A stretch of 64,000 nt of DNA from Isoetes taiwanensis (Eukaryota; Streptophyta; Lycopodiopsida; Isoetales; Isoetaceae), in the NCBI GenBank assembly GCA_021234155.1, contig JAJEKV010000011.1:20538677-20602676 (forward strand), written 5' to 3'. Below, in pieces: positions 8,301-64,000 of this stretch (its first letter is position 1; each line of letters opens with the position of its first letter). The position numbers were made by a program, and so were the translations under genes. The notes beneath the pieces are model-generated. The model had not been told where the DNA came from and searched no databases. It worked only from the letters and a program-made list of their open reading frames with translations.

Positions 8301-9500
8301 AACTAAATTAGTTTGCATCCACATTTTTAAGCTACATACCCTTTATGAATCCATATTTCACACTATTTAACCTCATTGAACATTGCTATCTCCAATTGTC
8401 TAACACTTGCTACATTCTATAAAATAGAGGAAAATTATGTTCTACAAAGCGGACAATCGAGCATTAACCGATGGTAATACTTAAAATTCATGCAAAGCAT
8501 AATAACTCAAACTCATGCAAAGCATATTAACTAAAGGCAAGGAAATATCTCAAATTCATGCAAGCATAATACTCTCCACCAAGGTGTATTCTACGTGGCA
8601 AATTAAATACCTTGAATAGGGTTACGTGTGTATTACGTGTATTACGATCAACGTCCTCGAAACTTGAGAAGAGCGGGTTTAGAGATTCCTCTTCCACCGC
8701 TTCCTCTGCCCGTCCGCCTCGACCTCGATTAAACTTTAGAAGACATCTCCCGAGTCGCCTAGTAACAGAGTCGGAAGGTCGCTTCGGATCTGGCCTTTCG
8801 AGCTGCTTTCGAAGAAATAGCGTTTTCTACGCATACGAGAAATTTGAATTTCAAGAAAACACAAAATCTTGGTTTGAAATATTCTTGACACATCCATGCC
8901 AAATTTATCCCCCTAAACGTAGTTAACCTAATCTTTCTTCTAATTTGAATTTTTCCGGCCGCAGTGATTTGAGGCTGTGATTTCATAGCGCTGTGAATTC
9001 TAATTCCATAGCACTTTGTGATTTCGAGAACTCAAATCAGCTTCTCAAGAATGGCTCTGAGTGCGGTACTCATCTCATTCCTATAGCTTGAACATTAATT
9101 TCCAATAGTAGGTGTCTCGAATAGCAATTTTCTGCGATTAAAGGTCGAAGATGAATGTTTCATGTTAACTACAAATCGAAAAAGAAAAGTAGGATTATAC
9201 AAGATCGACTCTATCGATCCGATTTTACCAAAGCTGTCATGGAATTCCTTCGGGGGATAAGTATGTCCAGGAGTCACGATGATTAATTCTTTGCTATGGA
9301 TGAAGCTTTACCTTGCGGACACCCGTTGGGGATCTTGTTGGAGAAAGTGTTGGAACATTTGTTGCATGGCCAAGAAACCGCTTAAAAAGGTATGTAACAT
9401 GTATTACATTGTAGAAATATAGAAGTAGACAAAATTTGTTGTATTCATTGGAAAAAGTTTACAATTGTATATAATGGATATAAACCGGATAAACCGGACA
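8301..9500. other. Spacer, no recognisable gene
   Basis: A plus-strand frame at 8612-8926 and minus-strand frames opposite it are short, with no known motif. Near 8460-8580 a phrase like CTCATGCAAAGCATAATA recurs three times. Some of this may be decayed intron or upstream exon of the HAD-like gene. Confidence 0.4.
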
Positions 9501-29599: not shown

Positions 29600-31665
29600 T
29601 GGACTAGATCACTCTTATCCATCTAAGATTCTTCGTCATCATCATCTTCATCAGACATCCATACATCTTCCACTTCACTTTCATAGTCTTCAGCTTCTTG
29701 TAGCTCAAAAGCTCATCAATATTATCTTCTAGGTCTTCCTCTTCTGTGTCATCTGGATCTGCATAAAGTGTAGTAATAGAAGAAGAAGCCATCTCAGAAA
29801 TACATGCCCGTGACCGCGATCAAGTTCGGGGCAGGTCAAGCTCTACCATTTCATTATGCAAGGGAGCATAAATATCTCTTTCTGTTGGTCTGATTACAGG
29901 AACTTATCAGTAGGAGTTTTAGTGATATCAACATGATCAACATTGACTTGATTTACACATGACAGTTCCTTGAACTTATCTAGCAACCTTAGATTTTCTC
30001 TACAGTATATAAGTCGCTCAAGTTGATTCAGAGCTAACCTATTCCGCTACTTGGTTTGTATTAGTGAATATGCACTCCAGTTTCGTTCGCATGGGCCTGT
30101 AGCACAATCCTAAGACAAAATACGCAATGCTAACTTCTGCAATTCAGGAGTGGATGAGCCATAAGACTCCCACCATACAATGGACTTCAAAATATTGTCT
30201 CTTACTTGTGCAGAAGCAATAGAGAATAGGTCTAATTTATTGCGGAATGTGTATAACTGTTCATTAAGCACTTGCTGCTGCATCTCATCTCCTTTAAACA
30301 CATTTCCTATGTATTGATGCCAACCCGTGTTGAGTTCAACATCCTTAAATTGTGTATCTGATTGCCATAGAGGATGTAGAATGTGAGCAGCAACATGTAC
30401 TGGTTTATGAAACCAATTCCATCTATATGTTATCTTCTCTTTGAGAGTTTCAATGCGGATAGACCCAAGACCAGGATGAGCATTCTTAAAGGTATCTAAT
30501 ACCCCAGTAATTCTGTCCATATACTCATAGACCAGTCCACGCATGTTGCCCTCCATGTCAGTAATGCGTAAAACTGTGTATATTGGACTTAATCCTTTTA
30601 CATTAGCTTCTAAATCGTCCCATAAACTTGAATCATAACACATTTTTTGTACTCATAATGCATCTGGCTCTTTATTTCCGTCCCATTGTTTCCATAAATA
30701 TGAAATAACAGTTCTTATGAGGTGGTCTCGAACACGTAACAACCTTTCTAGCATGATAAACTGATAAGCAAATCTTGTATTTGATAGTTGCTTAAAACAG
30801 ATGGTTTTGCATGGAAGATAGTCAGTAAATGTTCAGATTTCTCAATGCCATTACTTACTTATGGGATCTTTGCAATGTCTTCGAGTAGCAGATCCAATGA
30901 ATGACTTGCACAAGGCATCCAACAAATGCTTGAGTACTCTTTTCCAAGATACCTAAGACCCATGCTTTTATAATTAGGCCCATTGTCAGTGATAACCTGC
31001 ACTATATTTTTTGGTCCAATTTCCTCTATTGTTCGTTTGATTTCTTTGAAAATGAAACTGTCAGTAATTTTCTGACCAGCCTTAGAGCAGTCAATTGCGA
31101 GATGAAAAACAGTGCCCATGCAACTAGAGATCACAATATTCATAATATGTCTCTGCCTTCTATCTACACATCCATCTGTAATAACTGAGCACCCATACTT
31201 AGCCCACTTTTCTTTAATTGATTTTAGATCGTCACTAACTGTCTCTATCTCCTGATCCAATTCACCTTGCTTCATTTTATTATACCCCACTCCCTTCCAT
31301 GATGTACCAATTTGAGCTACAACATTTATCATTTTCTTCCACTGCTTGGTACGTAAAACATTGAATGACAAATTGCACATGATAATACATCTGCGCATCT
31401 CTATTCTAGCTTGCTTCTTTTGTGCACTAACCCAACTTTTTTTGCCTAATCTGCCTTGCTTTAGCTTCTTACATAAAGATCATTTGGTTTCCATCTCTAA
31501 ATTAACACAATAACTTGATTCTTGGTGTGTAACTTGCACATTTGCAATAATATGTGCATCTGCAATATTTTCAACTAAAGGCAATCTTAGCTTTTCACGT
31601 ATCTGTCTTACCTTATCTTGAGGAATTTGTTGACAACATCCCTTAATGTTATTTTATGCATGCGA
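29600..31665 (-). pseudogene. hAT-family transposase (DUF659 / hAT dimerisation type)
   Basis: hAT elements cut and paste DNA with an RNase-H-like DDE transposase. The minus strand starts with the end of a BED-like zinc finger (GCCQQIPQDKVRQIREKL, about 31,650). Next comes the DUF659 region, open from 31398 to 30859, with ITDGCVDRRQRHIMNI, GTVFHLAIDCS and VQVITDNGPNYKSMG (catalytic-domain aspartates), then WMPCASHSLDLLLEDI. A second open exon-like stretch (30643-30110) leads into WWESYGSSTPELQKLA, CERNWSAYSLIQTK and RNRLALNQLERLIY, the hAT C-terminal dimerisation motif, interrupted by one stop. An acidic tail (DPDDTEEEDLEDN) ends near 29,605. The N-terminal half of the BED finger is missing and abuts the gypsy gag. 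No terminal inverted repeats were found. Confidence 0.9.
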
Positions 31666-36654: not shown

Positions 36655-37320
36655 TAATTAAAAAGGGTGGTTCCCTTAAAACCATTAAATGCCCCTACAA
36701 TTTAGCTTTTTTCCAAAATGCCCCTAATGTTTTTAAAATTATCCAAATAATCAAACTAAATACAATCTATTAATACACTACACACCATCAATTTCTTGTA
36801 TTTATCAAAATACTCGGTTTGAGCATTTTAAAAGCCCAGCTTCCTGCAGGCCAGATATTTTGTGCCAAGAAATGATGGTGGAGGGAGAGAAGTTCGATCA
36901 AATAGTAGCTGCAACAACGTTCTCTCCTTGGGATGTTCCCCCTCTCTGTCAGACTAATTCTTGGCATGCTACTCCTCTAGCTCCACCTCCAGCTATTTTT
37001 CAAGAACTCATGAATTGTGATTTTTCAAGCATTTCTCCATTGCAATTTCTTGATTGCTATGCTATTTCCTTAAAGATAAGGTAAGCTATTGCCATGCTAT
37101 CTATAAGAGTATTCTGGTAAACACAAAAAGTATAGGGGCATTTTAAATATGCTGGGGGCATTGCAGTATATAAAAATAAATTATAAGGGCATTTTGGACA
37201 TTAATTTTGTAGTTGAATCGTATCATAATTGACTCAAGGGCATTTTGGTAATTCTAGAAACATTAGGTGCATTTTGGAAAAAAGCCATTGTAGGGTTGGT
37301 GATTTTCCCTTAATTCTATC
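36655..37320. mobile_element. MITE-like insertion with terminal inverted repeats
   Basis: The left end (about 36,690-36,735) CCCCTACAATTTAGCTTTTTT..CCAAAATGCCCCTAATG is matched in inverse by the right end (about 37,258-37,300) CATTAGGTGCATTTTGG..CATTGTAGGG over roughly 40 bp. CCCTTAAAA/TTTTCCCTTAA lies outside each. Five subterminal copies of RGGGCATTTTGG/AAA lie inside the right half. No transposase frame is present. It sits in the non-coding 3' part of the second gypsy element, so it came later. No unambiguous target duplication was identified. Confidence 0.65.
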
Positions 37321-55685: not shown

Positions 55686-56024
55686 CCAGCAACCTGTTAT
55701 AGCCAACAGGATCTGCTCAAGTTATTTCCTGCATTACCAGCTTCCTAAATTTTAACTCTACCAATAGTTGAGTACTATAATTATGCTTCCATTCAGTAGA
55801 AAAAGACTAGAGCAGTTTTGCATTTGCTACCCTTGTAGCAATTCAAAGTAAATCCATTATTACACTTAAAAAAAACCAAAAGACGTCTTGCATTACCAGC
55901 AACCTGTTATAGCCAATAGGATCCGCTCAAGTTATTTCCTCCATTACCAGCTTCCTAAATCTTACCTCTACCAATAGTTGAGTACTATAATTATGCTACA
56001 ATTCAGTAGAAAAAGACTAGAGCA
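55686..56024. repeat. 129-bp direct repeat, two copies 81 bp apart
   Basis: Copies at 55686-55814 and 55896-56024 begin CCAGCAACCTGTTATAGCC and end AAAAGACTAGAGCA. They are equal in length and about 94% identical by eye. The first copy is preceded by ATATGG, the second by GCATTA; GCATTACCAGC also occurs inside each copy, so unit phase is uncertain. Confidence 0.9.
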
Positions 56025-56730
56025 CTTTCCTGAGAACTTTACTTGAGAACTTTCGAACCCTAAAAGGGCCAGACCAAGATCTGGCCTTTTTGTCAGATCT
56101 AGCTAAGCAATCATGAGTCTGAGGTCCCGAATTGGACTTTTTGCATCAAGAAACCTTATACCCGCCCAAAGACAAACAAAAAAACTCAGATGCCAAGAAC
56201 AGGCCGGAATGAAAAAATTTAAAAAGGGAAAATAAAGTCGGGGTCAGCTTCTGAACGAGTTTATTGACCTTTGCAACTGTTGCTTGATTAGTTTGATGAG
56301 CTTCGAGTGTGAATGACCTACCTTGCTTCAGAGTTTCTGCAGACCTGATCCAAAGTTGATGAATTGATTATATTCTGTTACTTTGATCCTGTGCCCAAGA
56401 ATAAGAGCTTGGGATTTGATGTGTACCTTTTTCATGATGTGCAATTGAGGGAAAACCCGAGTTTGGTAAGAAAAAGTTGCTTTAAGCTTTGATTTCGCTT
56501 TAAGATAGACTTTAGAGATGAAAGATATTCTAAATAATGCATTCTAAGTGTCACATCACAAATGGTCTTGTTGCATACGTTATAAATCACATAAAAAGAA
56601 AGGCAGAAAGAAGATAAAGTTGCTTAGGATAGACTCAACCTTTTGGAAAGAAAAAAGGAAAAACCTTACAGCTAATCTAAATGTAGTTTCTAGATTGTAG
56701 CAGGCTTAATATTCATGCCATACAACATTG
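56025..56730. other. Spacer, no gene seen
   Basis: AT-rich with a small GGCCAGA..TCTGGCC stem near 56,068-56,085. No coding motif. Confidence 0.5.
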
Positions 56731-56732
56731 CA

Positions 56733-57693
56733 TTCTGGTAAGGGACTCGCAAAGAACACAAAAACCTAGATAGATAGGCTTGTCATTCATCACAGCAGCA
56801 GTATACACTGTGTGGGAAAATCTGAATGGGGAGTTGACCATAAGAACAATGTCTAGCTACCCCATAAAGGAAATAAGAAAATATGCAAAGGCAAGAGAGA
56901 GGACAATGGCGACAACTTCTCATCGGGATAAAAAAAACCCCGCCCTTTCGGGTTTTCGAGGAAAACCCTAATGAGAAATGGTCGCCAATGGCCTCGAGGA
57001 TGCCTTGAAGAGCAAGGTAGGAAATTGATGAAGCCAGCCAAAATGCGCATCAACGCCATGGAATGTGTGAAACCTGGAAAAAAGAAGAAATGCCTAGAAA
57101 GTACCCGTTAAACGTTAATAAAATAGGTACACCCATGGCAGGCGAGCATCTTCTAAGAAAATAGTCCCCAGAAAGCAAAAACACCCATTAGACATTAGGA
57201 ACCATAGACAAACATATATAGAAATAGAAAACATCACCGAGAGGTGAAAAAAGAAAAATAGCATCACCAACAGGTGGAAATCATCTAGCACCACCCCAGG
57301 TGGAAAAATATAGATAGCATCACCCAGTGGGTGGAAATAATTTGCATCAGCCATTGGATGGAAAAAAGCATCACCCAACGGGTGGTTAGTACTGAACAGA
57401 AACGTATAAAAAATAGACGACAATAATCACCATAGCAATACCCAATGAGTGGATGATAATGGAGGTATCGAAAAGGAAATAAACATGAACATGAAACAAA
57501 CTCAAACTATATAAAAAGGGCGGGTAGGGAGGGAAGCAATGGGCAAGGAAGAGATGCTGCTATGAGGAGACGCCGATAACCAACCACAAGAATGAATAGT
57601 GCATATATAGCTGCTCATTCCTTTCCAGAATGCCGATCCGTTGGCTCGGATCGATGCCTATTCTGGTAAGGGACTTGCAAAGAACACAAAAAC
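56733..57693. repeat. 33-bp direct repeats bracketing a 930-bp segment
   Basis: TTCTGGTAAGGGACTCGCAA.. at 56733-56765 recurs with one mismatch at 57661-57693 (both continue AGAACACAAAAAC). Between them lie an imperfect hairpin (CAATGGCGACAACTTCTCAT 56,904-56,923 against its inverse at 56,969-56,990) and the CACC..GGTGG array. Confidence 0.8.
57231..57460. repeat. CACC/GGTGG palindrome array
   Basis: About six units of roughly 33 bp: ATCACCGAGAGGTGAAAA, CATCACCAACAGGTGGAAA, CACCACCCCAGGTGGAAA, CATCACCCAGTGGGTGGAA, CATCAGCCATTGGATGG, CATCACCCAACGGGTGG. Each core is self-complementary (CACCC..GGGTG) with a 1-5 base centre and an A-rich tail. Confidence 0.8.
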
Positions 57694-57699
57694 TGGCCG

Positions 57700-60085
57700 A
57701 TAACCAGAGAAACATCAAGACATTGAGTTAGAGCCCAAATGACATAGCAAGAGTGAGAAGACGACGACTGCCATCCGTCTAAAGCATGAGCACCAGCATG
57801 CGAAACTCCTTGGGCCGCTCCTACCGAGGCACTGTTGCGACGAGCAGACTGCGTACCGTGTGGGTGTAAAGCGAAGATAAGATAATAGGGTTGGAATCAG
57901 GGCTGAAGGAGGATACAAAAAGGAACTTTTCTAGGCATAAATGTTACAGAATGAATGACAAACACCAATATAATGACAGATTGTAGAGCAATTTCTCGGA
58001 AAAAAGGGCAACAACGTAACCTGATTTAAGCTTAGGCAAAATATGAGAAAGGATGAATGCTGGGCCTGGGAACAAATGCAACAATAAATAACCATAGGGT
58101 GCAAGGTGAAGGTAAGGTTATGGTTTATGATATAGGGCAGATGAAGGGCGAGAGTGCCAAGGTTAGAGCGGAATTCTTGAGGTTGACGATATGACAAAGT
58201 GTGGCTAGCGAGAATAAAGGATCCAAAAAATGAAAAATCTGGACAAGGTTGCAATAAGAATGTAAAAAACATCAACGACAAGGATGGTGTCCATAGATCA
58301 TGTCTGTAGTAAAAAATGCCATGGAGTGTCAAACACAAATACATCATAACCAGACAAATGAGAACCAAAGAGGATGTATCCAATATAAAACTCATGCCAC
58401 AAAAATGCAATGAAGTGCCAAATGCAAATAAGTTGTATGTACGTAAAGCAAGTATAAAAGATGTGAAATGATATATGATAATGGGGTAAGGCTACAGCCT
58501 AAAAACTGTAGAAAACAACAACAAGACATACAATGTAAACTTGAAATTGGCCAAATAAAATGTACTCATAACAAAAATGTGTAAGCATTTGGAAAGCAAT
58601 ATGAAAATGTTAACTAAAAGAGAAAAGGTAGCTGTGAATGAGATGTCAGAAGGAAATTTGATAGCATGCCTAAACCTATGAATAGATGCCCCAATATAAA
58701 TAACACTTACCAGAACGGGAACGAGGTTGAGGTAAAGGTGGAGCCATGGGAGCACAAAGTCAAAAGGAATGTCAAGAAGAAAAGTGAGATTGAAGGCAAA
58801 TTAGATTCCCTAACGAGGAGGTTCACAAAGTGCGAGGAATGTGCGAGAACAAGAATAGGAGAGCGAAGATGGAGATTAAGAGTAGGCAAGGTGGGATCAA
58901 GCTAGCAGAATAGAAGCGGGCAGTAATGCAACTAATTAACGACTAAATTTGGCCAAATAAAACATATTTGTAACAATAAAAAATAAGTAAATGGCCTATA
59001 TACAATTAACAAGTTGCAACAACATCATGCAATATCCAAGGAGACCCATCATTGAATGCCAAATGCATACCTGACCATGATGTGGATCTTGAAAACGGCA
59101 ACCAACCTTGAATAAAAATGAGATCTAACAAAAACAACGAATCACACGAAGTGTAAAATTCAAGACAACAATGATAGGTTCAAAGTTCCCAATCAAAGAA
59201 AAACTCAAAGGTCTTAGGATCCATAGGATAACAAACTCGATGGGCAAAAAGGGACTTGCCAAATGAAGGAGAATCTCGTTAAGTGTATTGTGCCAAAACA
59301 AGACTTGAACAAGCATCTAAAAAGAAGAGCTAAGAGGAGGATGGTAAAAGGGAAGAAAGTGTGAAGGCACCAAGATGAGGACCCCCATCAACCATGGGAC
59401 ACGAGCGACATCATGCAGGATCCCGTGTGCTGCTACTAGCCGAAAGACATCGCGGATATAGTTAAAAGAGACCCAAGTCGAGAGAATGGTAAGAATGGCG
59501 ATGCTTGAAGGGAGGAGGTCAAAATGTGAAATCCAAGTCAAAGGTAAAAGTTACGGCCAAAGGTATCGAGGAGATGGAGGTCGAGAGTGCCAAGGTTCGG
59601 ATAGGAGTAATGAGGTGAGTCCAATAACCAAATGATGAAATGGGTAATGGAAATACAACAACTACATATTGTTATGTGGAAAATTATATCATGCCAAATC
59701 TAGATACAAAATAAGGCAACTCGTGATAAACATGTAAAGAACTTGCTCTTGACAAATAAATGTAACACATATCTAGAGATGACAAATCCATAACGTAACA
59801 TATCAAGAGAGCTCAGGAGTACCAGGACAACAAAGGAAATGTTTTAAGACTCAAGTATGAAGAAAAATGTTAAACAGAAGGTTAGCAAAATAGAACAAGA
59901 ATTCGCACCAAAATGTAAACCGATAATAGACAAATCCACTTGCAAATCTAGATGCAAAAATTGACAATCTAATACATGTATATATGGAAAATTGGTGTAG
60001 AAACAAACTTGAGATAGAGCCAATGACCGTAAACCTATAGCAAATATATAAAAGAAGCATGCAATGCAACAAACACGATTGCAAA
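57700..60085. other. Spacer with low-level internal repetition, no gene seen
   Basis: Similar phrases recur at distance: CGAGAGTGCCAAGGTT near 58,149 and 59,582; GGCCAAATAAAA..AACAA near 58,550 and 58,950. Minus-strand frames (for example 58,410-57,931, 159 codons) are Phe/Leu-rich because the plus strand is A-rich, with no family motif. Confidence 0.5.
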
Positions 60086-60088
60086 TTA

Positions 60089-60116
60089 AACGGGAGTGTT
60101 GCAGCACTCCCGTTTC
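60089..60116. repeat. Perfect hairpin with 11-bp arms
   Basis: AAACGGGAGTG and CACTCCCGTTT flank a 6-base loop (TTGCAG). GC-rich in AT-rich surroundings. It lies about 310 bp beyond the 3' end of the ParB-methyltransferase gene and could be a structural 3' signal or a transposon end. Confidence 0.85.
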
Positions 60117-60424
60117 AAAGATTCCCTTGAAAAAAACAGCCTGATCTAGAAAATGACACTTTTTTCCTTCTAATTGGGAATTCCAATAGGCTTAATTTTT
60201 TTTTACCTCTTTTTTGGCCCCCTAGTGTAAAATAACTTGGAATTTGCCAAAACCAACACTTGAAAAGGGAAGAATTTAGACATGCTTTTGTATTCTCAAA
60301 AAGTACTATCTTGAAAACACCAGAATGTAGTGAATAAAATAATTATTATATAATGAAGAGTGTTTCAATGATACAATTTGTAACATCACAATGTGGTCAG
60401 TATTAATGTTTTTTGGAAAAGACA

Positions 60425-63400
60425 CTAAAGGTCCAAATCAAAGTCTTCATCATGCTTTTTGCTTGATTCTGCTGTGCCAGATTCTACAGTCTGATCCTTT
60501 TCTTGTGCCTTACCCTTGTCTACTTTTGCAGTGTCTTCAGGAATGGTAGCTAGTGCCACTTCTTTCAGCTCTGCAAAAGTAGCTTCATCCTCTAAAGAGC
60601 TAGTGAATGGAGGTCATCTCGAGGAAGAGGTCACTTTGGCAAAATCGGATGAGGATTTGGCCCCTAACTCTTGGTGCTCATCGGTAGGGTAGGCAAAGCT
60701 TGCAGTCTCATCTTGATGAATTGCACGACTTCTTTATCAATGTCCACTTTGCTACACAATTCGGCCCTTCCTAAGTGCACAAGCTATTGTTGTACCGAGC
60801 CGAGAAGGCATCAAGCACCCAATCTCACGGGCGTGAAAACATGTCTAGGAGATGGTTGATTAGCTTTTGAGGCTTCTGGTAGTGATTAACAATTCTACCT
60901 TGTGCACTAGGGTCCTGTAGCTTTTGAAGCACAGCTGGAAATTCCAACACATTAGAAAAATTCGGCATGCTTCTGTGTTAAAATGCTCCATGGTGCGTTT
61001 TCCATCGAAACTCCAGTAAGCAACATGGAGGTATTCAACCTTACTCAGCAATCTCGCCCCGCCCGCCATGGTAGTTTATATTTGTTTTGTACACAGAGAA
61101 ATTAGAGTGGTGTCACTAACGAAAAAAACAGAACAAGAAACAAACAAAGAGAACAAGTCAAAGGCAATTATATTCTGGAATAGAAAACTAAAACAAAAAG
61201 AAGAAACAAGCCCAACGTATTCCGCATCATAAAGTACTCACCAAACCAAATTCTCATAACCAGCTTGCCTTTGGGGATCCGAAGTGAGTTTTAAGCGTGG
61301 ACTCCACAAGGCCGATTGCATGCTCGAGTGAAACCGACAAGGCGCCCGGTGCTTGGCCGTTGTGACTTGTTTGATCTCCGTCGGCGGCGTTAAACTCGAA
61401 AATTTAAAAAGGTCGGTCGTCAGAAACTACTTGGCCTCCTTTAGTTTAAAGCCATAAGGAAGGTCCGCAATCACCAGTGTGAAATCTTGTGGCTTTACTG
61501 TCCCAACCAAATTAGTGCAGTCCCCGTGAATGATGGAAAATAAATTATTTTGGTCAAATAAATTAAACTTTTCATAATCAGAAGGCTCCACATCTAGAGT
61601 TCTCCTCTCTGCCAGTGTTCTTTCTTCTCGTGCCAGTCTGACGAGGTGCATAAAACCTTCTGGCAGGTCCTTATTTTTCTTCTTGTTCTGCAAACAAAGG
61701 GGAGATTGAGACAGAGACAAGTAAAGTATGACGTGTTTAGTCAGCGTACCCATCCTTCAAAATTTGGTGCGTACTGAAGCATACGCTCGTCGGATGTAGC
61801 TATGGGATAAAGCTCCTTGCACCTCTCCCACGTCTCCACGTTGAGTTGCTCCATCAGACATGTCTGGCAGGTGATAACATTTTTTTGGCTAGAAAGAAAA
61901 ACACAACCTTTTTAGCAGTTGAAAAGAGAAAACGCGAAGTAAACTATCTTCCTGCCACCTAAAGTTATTCTAGAATACAAGCGCTGCAATCAATATTTTT
62001 CTTGTTGCGTAAGTATTCCAGAATACACTTTAATTGCAAAGAAGAAGCGAAAGTGTATTCTGGAATACACTTCTACAAACAACAAGTTAGAGTGTGTATT
62101 CGAATCACGTTTTTATTTGACTCAAAGGAGTAAAAGTGTATTCGGAATACACTTTTACACTACAAGAAGAGAGAACGTGTGATTCGGAATACACTTTTCG
62201 TTCCATCGAGGGTGCGAAAGCATTTCGTGAGCACTAAATTGTCATTATCCGACAGAATTCTACAAGTGAAAAGGTAGCAATGATTGTATGCTTACTTGTG
62301 CAACTCCTTCGACATTTCTTCGAGTGTGAACTCCTTGTCCACCACCTTTTGCAGAAGCTGTTCTACTAATTCTGTGTCAGTGAACCCCTGCATCTCCCTC
62401 CAGACAGTGATGGTCATTTCTTTCTTTGGGACGTCGCTGCCTTTCTTCTTCTCCGACACCTTTCCCTTACTTTTTAGCTCACCGCGCTCAAACATATTAA
62501 ATATTTCGTTCTGAAGCTCCCAGATCTGCAAACAAATTAAAAAACTTAGAAGCTAGTTGCACACTAAATCTTATTCTGGAATACGCTTGTAACCTTACCC
62601 GGCCATCCCTGAACGCTAGCTGAAACCAATTGTCATGACCAATGAGTGATGCCCGTTTGTTCGCCTCGTCGTATTTTAGGCAACACTCAATGGCACAAGC
62701 TTCTTTAAGTTCAAGGGAGTACTGTGGCTTTTTGAGATCCTCTCCATATTTTTCCTTGAAGATAACATATTCTCTGTGCATGAATCTGATTTTGTCGACA
62801 AAGCTCATTTTTAACTTGTACTCGTTGTCAGCGTTGTGAGTGTTGGCAACGATTTTGGCTTCCTCGTCGGTCAAAACCACATGAGAGACACGGGAGAAAC
62901 GGACAAATACCTAGGATTCTTTTTTTTCCTTGTATAATTGCCTCCTTGCCTTAAAGCTGTGGTTCCCACCCAAAACATAATGCGTATATGTGTCCGCATT
63001 TTCTCTATCGTACTCTGCAGGAGTTGTGCACTGCTCTCTATCAACAAGAACAACAATTGGAGCTACATGTGCATTGGGATTGCTCCGGATTCTGTCCTTG
63101 AGGTTCCTTAGGTGGTCTGCATATATCTTTCGAACCTGCAGTGGTCGTTCTCCAGCTTCATTTTTTGGAGGAAGCTTCATAGCTGTGACCGGCAAATAAA
63201 TGACACCTTGCACAAATTTGTGCAGGTTTATCTCTTCCATTTTCTCTGCTGTTTTATCAACTTTTTTTTCTTTGATGGCAACGCCAGGTGCTTTGCCTTT
63301 CCCCTTCTTCTTCTTGTGTGCATCCTCGGGGGAGCATCTTACGTTTCAATGATAGCCGTTTTCTTTTCTTAGGCTCTTTAGCAGCTCTGGTTTGCCTCTG

Positions 63401-63547
63401 CTTCTTCTTTGCTGGTGGTGGAGGTGGCTGCTCTTCCCGAACTGATGAACTCACGGATGGGCTCGCGAGACCGTGATGGACTTCCCGATAAATTCCCTTG
63501 ATCTTCCTCTTCCCCTTGTTCGACTTCGTTGTAGGGAAGTCCTGCAT
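60425..63547 (-). pseudogene. ParB-like domain fused to a beta-class DNA amino-methyltransferase
   Basis: Minus strand. Exons 63547-62599, 62525-62296, 61888-61750 and 61687-61427 join at GT-AG borders with consistent phases. Exon 1 has a Lys/Arg-rich N terminus (likely nuclear signal), then a ParB/sulfiredoxin-like domain: GVIYLPVTAMKLPP, RPLQVRKIYADHL, APIVVLVDRE, YVLGGNHSFKARRQL. A helical linker and a CxxC exon (VITCQTCLMEQ) follow. Exon 4 has IIHGDCTNL and motif IV, VIADLPYGF. Beyond a stop at 61427: YKTNINYHGG, RLLSKVEYLHVAYWSFDGKR, IVNHYQKPQKLI, DWVLDAFS (motif I, with the GTT part shifted), VDIDKEVVQFIKMRL and an acidic end (DEDFDLDL, stop at 60425-60427). Motif IV before motif I defines the beta class of N4/N6 methyltransferases. 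Lesions: frameshift in a C run near 63,330, TAG at 62908-62910, stop 61427, frameshifts near 61,050 and 60,965, TGA near 60,825, frameshift in motif I. Known family use: methylating cytosine N4 or adenine N6; which one is unknown. Confidence 0.85.
61968..62205. repeat. Intronic TATTC/GAATA palindrome array in the methyltransferase gene
   Basis: Within the 62295-61889 intron six self-complementary words occur at ~40-bp spacing: TATTCTAGAATACAAGC, AGTATTCCAGAATACACTTT, GTGTATTCTGGAATACACTT, GTGTATTCGAATCAC, GTGTATTCGGAATACACTTT, GTGATTCGGAATACACTTTT. The same core is in the 62598-62526 intron (TATTCTGGAATACGC, near 62,572) and in the region between exons near 61,170 (TATTCTGGAATA). None was seen in the exons. 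Confidence 0.8.
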
Positions 63548-64000
63548 CGTTATTAGCTTGAGCGTAATTAATGATGGCGAGGCGACCTCTTGTTCACGTG
63601 GTGAGAAACATACTTATAAAGAGGATGTGGATTTACCTTCCTGAAGTCTAAGGTAGGATTCATCAACATGAATAAAGCCTTGAGATGTCGAAAAAGACAA
63701 TCTCCCTCCCTTACCGGTCTGCCTTGACTACCTCACTCCGCGGACGAGGATGGTGCCCATGCGGACAAATTCCTGTCATCGTACCTTTTGGTTCCAGGGC
63801 TCCAAACGGACATGTAGAAAAGTCGAGTCTTTGTACTTTCCGGAAGTACCCTTGTAAAAAACCATTGAGTTTGGAAGTTTTTAGTAAATAGAAGGCGATC
63901 CGACTCCTCAACCCTTCTCTGTGGGTCTGCGGTTTTCACGATTTTAATAGGCTTCTTCCATTGTTTCTTCTTTGCCGTCGTATGCAGGCAAATTGTGTGT
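63548..64000 (-). other. Upstream of the ParB-methyltransferase gene; possible further 5' exon
   Basis: The minus strand has an open, protein-like stretch (63,720-63,635) reading GDCLFRHLKALFMLMNPTL in one frame or GRLSFSTSQGFIHVDESYLR in another, ending at a donor-like AAG|GTAAATCC near 63,637. A further piece (63,939-63,733) is open. Neither has a motif I know. They may be 5' exons of the gene or the edge of another element cut by the window. Confidence 0.3.

Follow-up and report, generated by a model that had tools for sequence, protein, structure and literature searches.

The DNA analysed here (the window) is a stretch of 64,000 nucleotides from the quillwort Isoetes taiwanensis, C919:20538677-20602676, in a searched assembly of 1,658,258,908 bases and 1110 contigs. 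On the minus strand, the last part of the window is the right part of one copy of an 8305-bp transposon, C919:20598748-20607052. The element is made of two divergent genes: a leftward gene with a DUF7869 domain (PF25273; E 8e-43 in copy L009 and 1.7e-52 in copy L025), and a rightward gene that encodes a ParB-like part joined to a methyltransferase. From its place and from patterns usual in such elements, the DUF7869 gene is taken to be a putative transposase gene. The methyltransferase gene, with at least five coding exons, reaches the window edge, and the second gene lies beyond it. The element also has two arrays of a palindrome, GTGTATTCYRGAATACAC, with a step of 41-43 bp: one stands between the two genes, the other in intron 2 of the methyltransferase gene. 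Positions are collected in Table 1.

Table 1. Features of the transposon copy, in positions of the window
Feature	Position	Strand	Remarks
Transposon copy, window part	60072..64000	-	extends beyond the window as far as C919:20607052 (visible in L029); from alignment to other copies, ends and TGTT/TGTT duplication
Exon 1, N-terminal region and ParB-like core	62599..63980	-	broken: stop at 62911, frameshifts; 5' border (about 63980) approximate; borders by comparison with L023
Frame with ParB-like core LPVTAMKLPP...VLGGNHSFKARRQL	62911..63345	-	genome matches; TIGR03764 in 12 of 15 aligned relatives
Exon 2	62296..62525	-	GT..AG borders as in L023
Intron-2 array palindrome site, decayed	62177..62194	.	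3 mismatches
Intron-2 array palindrome site	62053..62070	.	exact core, 42 bp from site 62011..62028
Intron-2 array palindrome site	62011..62028	.	2 mismatches to GTGTATTCNNGAATACAC
Exon 3	61750..61888	-	borders as in L023
Exon 4, methyltransferase (first half) with motif IV, ADLPYGF, at 61448-61468	61242..61687	-	stop at 61427 in this copy; PF01555 in L023 product
Exon 5, second half of methyltransferase, HYQKP at 60870-60884, VLDAFS at 60801-60818, acidic tail	60425..61092	-	frameshifted, no AG acceptor in this copy; PF01555 in L023 product
Right terminal repeat, end ...CTCCCGTTTAATTTGCAATCGTGTT, hairpin CGGGAGTG/CACTCCCG	60072..60112	-	32-base core counted genome-wide
Target site duplication of 4 bp flanking the element, TGTT on minus strand	60068..60071	.	

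The exon structure is clearest in copy L023, where five coding exons are joined over four GT..AG introns into an open product of 897 aa (the first exon being begun at an arbitrary in-frame codon); the acidic tail beyond this product sits in another frame. In the window copy, GT..AG borders flank the intron behind each of exons 1, 2 and 3, and at the last intron the GT is present and the AG missing where L023 has one. This copy is broken: stop codons interrupt it at 62911 and 61427, and the N-terminal part of exon 1 and the last exon are frameshifted. The same exon order, whole or partial, recurs in all 20 other copies (L017, L024 and L027 are without some exons), so it is not a product of chance. 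The original prediction, made from peptides named on one strand, had described a broken, spliced plant gene of four exons in consistent phase, with an intact version expected elsewhere. All these peptides are present on the minus strand, splicing and exon order stand, the damage is real, and L023 does keep the methyltransferase exons open; it is the extent that had been underestimated, the gene being larger, with at least five coding exons, and accompanied by a second gene.

Twenty further copies were studied together with that of the window (21 in all), with the neighbouring stretches for five of them, the window's included. Alignment shows a unit common to the copies, with the ends AACAAGATTGCGTATTAAACGGGAG and CTCCCGTTTAATTTGCAATCGTGTT, which are imperfect inverted repeats; the termini read AACA..TGTT and are accompanied by 4-bp target duplications. 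The left-end region was checked in 18 of the 21 copies (all but L012, L013 and L018). Both ends were found in 13, among which 12 have identical 4-bp flanks, the exception being L021, and a recognisable end was not found in five of the 18 checked (L010, L015, L017, L024 and L026). Genome-wide, the 32-base core of the right end has 477 exact matches (243 + 234), and its reversed control none. Searches with the ParB-like exon and with the PF01555 profile gave 2823 and 1442 genome places, which are first-look counts and not copy numbers of the element; 150 places were scored in each case, all with E < 1e-70 and 80-100% identity for the exon (a stop codon was seen by eye in 20 of these rows) and all above the family cut-off for the profile. 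This is a jumping gene present in hundreds of copies in the quillwort genome, and the feature first noticed in the window is almost certainly a transposon gene.

Inverted ends together with a target duplication of fixed length identify the element as a TIR (cut-and-paste type) DNA transposon, and the 4-bp length would also fit Sola. Other classes were considered and rejected. A LINE had been suggested by copies that share their right end and are truncated on the left, and is ruled out by the inverted ends and target duplications; the hairpin at the right end had suggested a Helitron, ruled out by the 4-bp duplications. IS3EU, defined by TA..TA termini and 6-bp duplications (PMC10045372), is ruled out by the AACA..TGTT termini and by duplication length. 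Among the sequences met in the course of these searches, L064 resembles a derivative that has lost internal sequence, with the intron-2 array, an exon C and, about 0.24 kb on, sequence matching the right end. Window positions 56000-60000, adjoining the element, are strongly skewed towards purines on the plus strand, with an AT skew of 0.25-0.35. Farther away, a frame with DUF659 (30859-31479, minus strand; E 2.8e-40), a domain also present in hAT-type transposases, belongs to a second, unrelated transposon remnant.

The methyltransferase is recognised by PF01555 (N6_N4_Mtase) with E 3.3e-17 and 63.6 bits in the 897-aa product of L023, and with 70.2 bits in its last two exons, against a cut-off of 26.7 bits. 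Among solved relatives CcrM is the best match (E 6.6e-10), and MboIIA and RsrI are also found. The peptides of L023 follow one another in the order ADLPYGF, HYQKP, VLDAFSGSGTT, the first corresponding to motif IV of these enzymes and the last to motif I; to judge by these motifs, an order with motif IV ahead of motif I is the permuted one of the beta class. The profile match and the motif order place the C-terminal part in the bacterial-type beta class, as had been predicted. Its motif IV is the variant DLPY, the usual form being DPPY. The predicted activity is very probably that of an amino-methyltransferase, or else the enzyme descends from one. Four other PF01555 matches in the assembly, all on the minus strand and with stops, each take in most of the profile within a single stretch, unlike the two-exon methyltransferase: C976:451678-452409, C1039:76120-76806, C1038:779296-779934 and C1034:14627601-14628164. 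They are possibly intronless relatives or another family.

The label 'ParB-like', which we use for the N-terminal part, is also the one given to the Ectocarpus protein by its authors (PMC12477816). The ParB motif order was recognised by eye, and TIGR03764 matches 12 of 15 aligned relatives, with a best E of 1.1e-4 that is far under the curated cut-off. The L023 product has no match to Pfam ParB and a sub-threshold one to DUF6551; the ParB-like part found no match in the PDB (nothing better than 0.37), nor did the ParB region in a phage search. An hhalign comparison with eight plasmid or phage proteins and with the N-terminal part of the viral protein P0006 gave a probability of 0.17% from a thin query profile, and the structure model reached a pLDDT of 41 with no confident fold. 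From its sequence, ParB homology of this part is weakly supported: the TIGR03764 match speaks for the domain named in the original prediction, and Pfam, profile comparison and structure model do not.

A protein search scored the 7992 candidates that shared most words, and among these gave five matches: three Ginkgo proteins, one starfish protein and one weak methyltransferase. The starfish protein (P0004, Acanthaster planci LOC110984678) aligns across 89% of the query region at 22% identity, with an E of 6.8e-17. Its layout is similar but its methyltransferase motifs are decayed, DLPKSW standing at the position of motif IV; a search started from it recovered P0004 itself and nothing else among the candidates scored. 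Related genes exist elsewhere, as the original prediction required, and the idea that one lineage alone had gained the writer gives way to relatives in Ginkgo and starfish and to published algal counterparts.

By its substitution pattern, coding constraint on the methyltransferase gene is strong. The selection test used the 15 copies with an open, gapless stretch of 214 codons (6 of the 21 were dropped), and the mean dN/dS was 0.045 in 15 pairs with a measurable dS above 0.3, a ratio biased downward by the choice of copies for being open. For exon 1, taking one pair in seven from the 105 gave 15 rows, of which 8 show silent-site saturation and a dN of 0.03-0.08. In exon 5, four pairs with L023 give a dN/dS of 0.02-0.03, with one stop each in two of the five copies used. 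Ratios are higher in low-divergence pairs (exon 4, 0.19-0.81; exon 5, 0.27-0.33); such values in close pairs fit decaying copies, as expected.

The palindrome sites follow a regular plan. With at most two mismatches, GTGTATTCNNGAATACAC has 194 sites in the 10-kb stretches of the 21 copies. Intron 2 holds 115 of them and the space between the genes 63; another 4 fall in other introns, and the remaining 12 are 6 sites that by position belong to intron 2 of L024 and 6 outside the L019 element. Spacings are 41-43 bp in 119 of 147 cases. The centre reads CG 98 times, CA 52 times and TG 39 times, which looks like the decay of methylated CpG. Between elements (10 copies) the cores are 96% identical, a value inflated because the sites were selected by their core, and the spacers 42%. 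All 43 sites with at most three mismatches in the five 20-kb stretches lie within the element; the whole window holds one further site outside it, with three mismatches, at 37107.

Genome-wide, a 22-bp form, AAGTGTATTCCGGAATACACTT, occurs at 1810 places, and its control at none. Among the 50 palindromes listed, 22 stand to the element side of an exact right end that is itself listed; their distance from it is 1.8-2.1 or 4.1-4.8 kb, bar one at 3.3 kb. No listed right end is near 28 of the 50, and 2 of the 50 are on the wrong side of a right end, within 8.5 kb. Conversely, those contigs have 16 right ends, and 9 of these have a listed palindrome. Of the 28 unlinked palindromes, five were sampled: four are in or beside element-related sequence, and the fifth (L068) is 0.35 kb away from it. 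In the stretches examined, the phased palindrome arrays belong to the elements. A further array lies downstream of the L019 element, at 9016-9480 of that stretch; L066 matches the neighbouring sequence at 90%, so this array may be a separate non-autonomous relative.

The location of the arrays, in the promoter region shared by the two genes and within the methyltransferase gene, together with the apparent fusion of a DNA-binding part to a methyltransferase, suggests that the element may mark itself. The ParB-like part would bind the palindrome arrays of its own element, the fused methyltransferase would thereby be placed on the transposon's own promoter and intron, and 4mC or 6mA deposited there would keep the transposon expressed or mobile despite host silencing. 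Self-binding has already been proposed for the Sola1 protein of Ectocarpus (PMC12477816). We give a probability of about 0.6 to the explanation as a whole, that of a decayed transposon copy with a DUF7869 gene and a ParB-like/methyltransferase gene whose arrays would be bound and marked. Self-marking through the arrays, a step argued from sequence, is a tentative part of it, with rather less than an even chance. More doubtful is a self-contained epigenetic system of prokaryotic type, with a ParB-like reader sitting on a parS-like palindrome in promoter and intron and a 4mC/6mA writer. The 41-43-bp repeat would then represent a helical phase of about four turns, and Isoetes would carry transposon-written amino-methylation.

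Self-marking has to be weighed against other uses of both the arrays and the enzyme. It could instead be the transposase or a host factor that binds the arrays, and motif IV reads DLPY rather than DPPY, the starfish relative having DLPKSW. Were the palindromes transposase or host-regulator sites, the methyltransferase would mark host or element DNA without them, and such marking could, for example, set the timing of transposition relative to replication, the part that Dam plays for IS elements in bacteria. One array indeed lies in the promoter region common to both genes, and the palindrome centre TTCNNGAA resembles a heat-shock element, so a host factor is possible; the larger array, however, lies some 2 kb away from the right end and inside a methyltransferase intron, which would be unusual for a transposase site, and we consider this account less likely than not. 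The methyltransferase gene might also be a passenger, acquired in a single event and since then transported without serving the element. Broken copies are many among those examined, that of the window included, and dN/dS rises to 0.81 in close pairs, as such a gene would have it, but ratios of 0.02-0.05 in distant measurable pairs, silent saturation in 8 of the 15 exon 1 rows and the same two-part protein reported in algal transposons (PMC12477816) make a passenger quite improbable.

The original prediction had offered two origins for the writer, domestication by the host or carriage by a mobile element. Host genes of bacterial origin do encode 4mC writers in rotifers and Marchantia (PMC8885841), and a domesticated gene could have been repeated by chance. 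As the gene shares one transposon unit with terminal repeats, 4-bp target duplications and a DUF7869 gene, and as there are 477 exact right-end cores in the genome, carriage by a mobile element is supported and the gene is that of a high-copy transposon; we regard a host gene as very improbable. The methyltransferase matches phage methyltransferase families, which might point to an endogenous virus, but spliceosomal introns, a spread across many large scaffolds, transposon ends and target duplications make a virus or a contaminant scarcely credible. A scan of IMG/VR, which reaches close relatives only, found no viral relative, and no viral structural genes were noticed in the element among those of its frames that were scanned against Pfam.

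The preferred reading, a transposon that may mark itself, joins a series of published systems. Algal cases were reportedly treated by Iyer and colleagues in 2011, which we take to be reference 50 of the Ectocarpus paper. Sola1-1_Ec32 of Ectocarpus is likewise a DNA transposon, with a protein combining ParB-like and N4/N6 methyltransferase parts on the strand opposite the transposase, but it measures 21.5 kb, has a 1104-aa product and lives in a brown alga, whereas the element described here measures 8.3 kb and lives in a vascular plant; the phased palindrome arrays have no mention for Sola1-1_Ec32 in the part of the paper available (PMC12477816). Green and red algal cases are cited there (PMC12477816), reference 51 among the sources being Petroll et al. 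2025. Since the same architecture is published for algal transposons, the Isoetes element is a vascular-plant member of an already known kind. To that kind it adds a host among the vascular plants, a compact size of 8.3 kb between defined ends, a measure of coding constraint and the palindrome arrays, and we make no claim that land-plant members are unpublished.

Other systems share single traits with this element. VANDAL and VANC in Arabidopsis show that the anti-silencing protein of a plant transposon can act on tandem motifs in its own element (PMC5735166); a transposon protein and tandem motifs of its own element are common to both cases, but VANC leads to loss of DNA methylation, whereas the effector here would add an amino-methyl mark. 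TET/JBP genes of fungal DNA transposons, IS3EU among them, also provide a DNA-modifying enzyme as an accessory gene; this enzyme is a 5mC oxidase and not a methyltransferase, and those IS3EU elements have 6-bp duplications and other termini (PMC12730594). The bdelloid N4CMT and the Marchantia sperm 4mC enzyme are again writers of bacterial origin in eukaryotes, N4CMT being of PF01555 type with introns, but both are described as host genes, in a text where the word ParB is absent (PMC8885841). Finally, gp52 of Methanoculleus virus L4768 (P0006) is a 405-aa protein with PF01555 behind an N-terminal part resembling ParB-annotated proteins; it comes from an archaeal virus and has no introns, and no similarity was detected between its ParB part and the plant protein. 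A search for relatives of P0006 in IMG/VR led nowhere.

Plants silence transposons with 5-methylcytosine. The algal cases already in print make the Isoetes element less of a surprise, and because nanopore reads were used for the Isoetes taiwanensis assembly (PMC8566536), the question of self-marking is directly testable. A transposon with its own amino-methyltransferase would amount to a counter-mark outside the plant's own chemistry, and the palindrome arrays show where to look for the mark.
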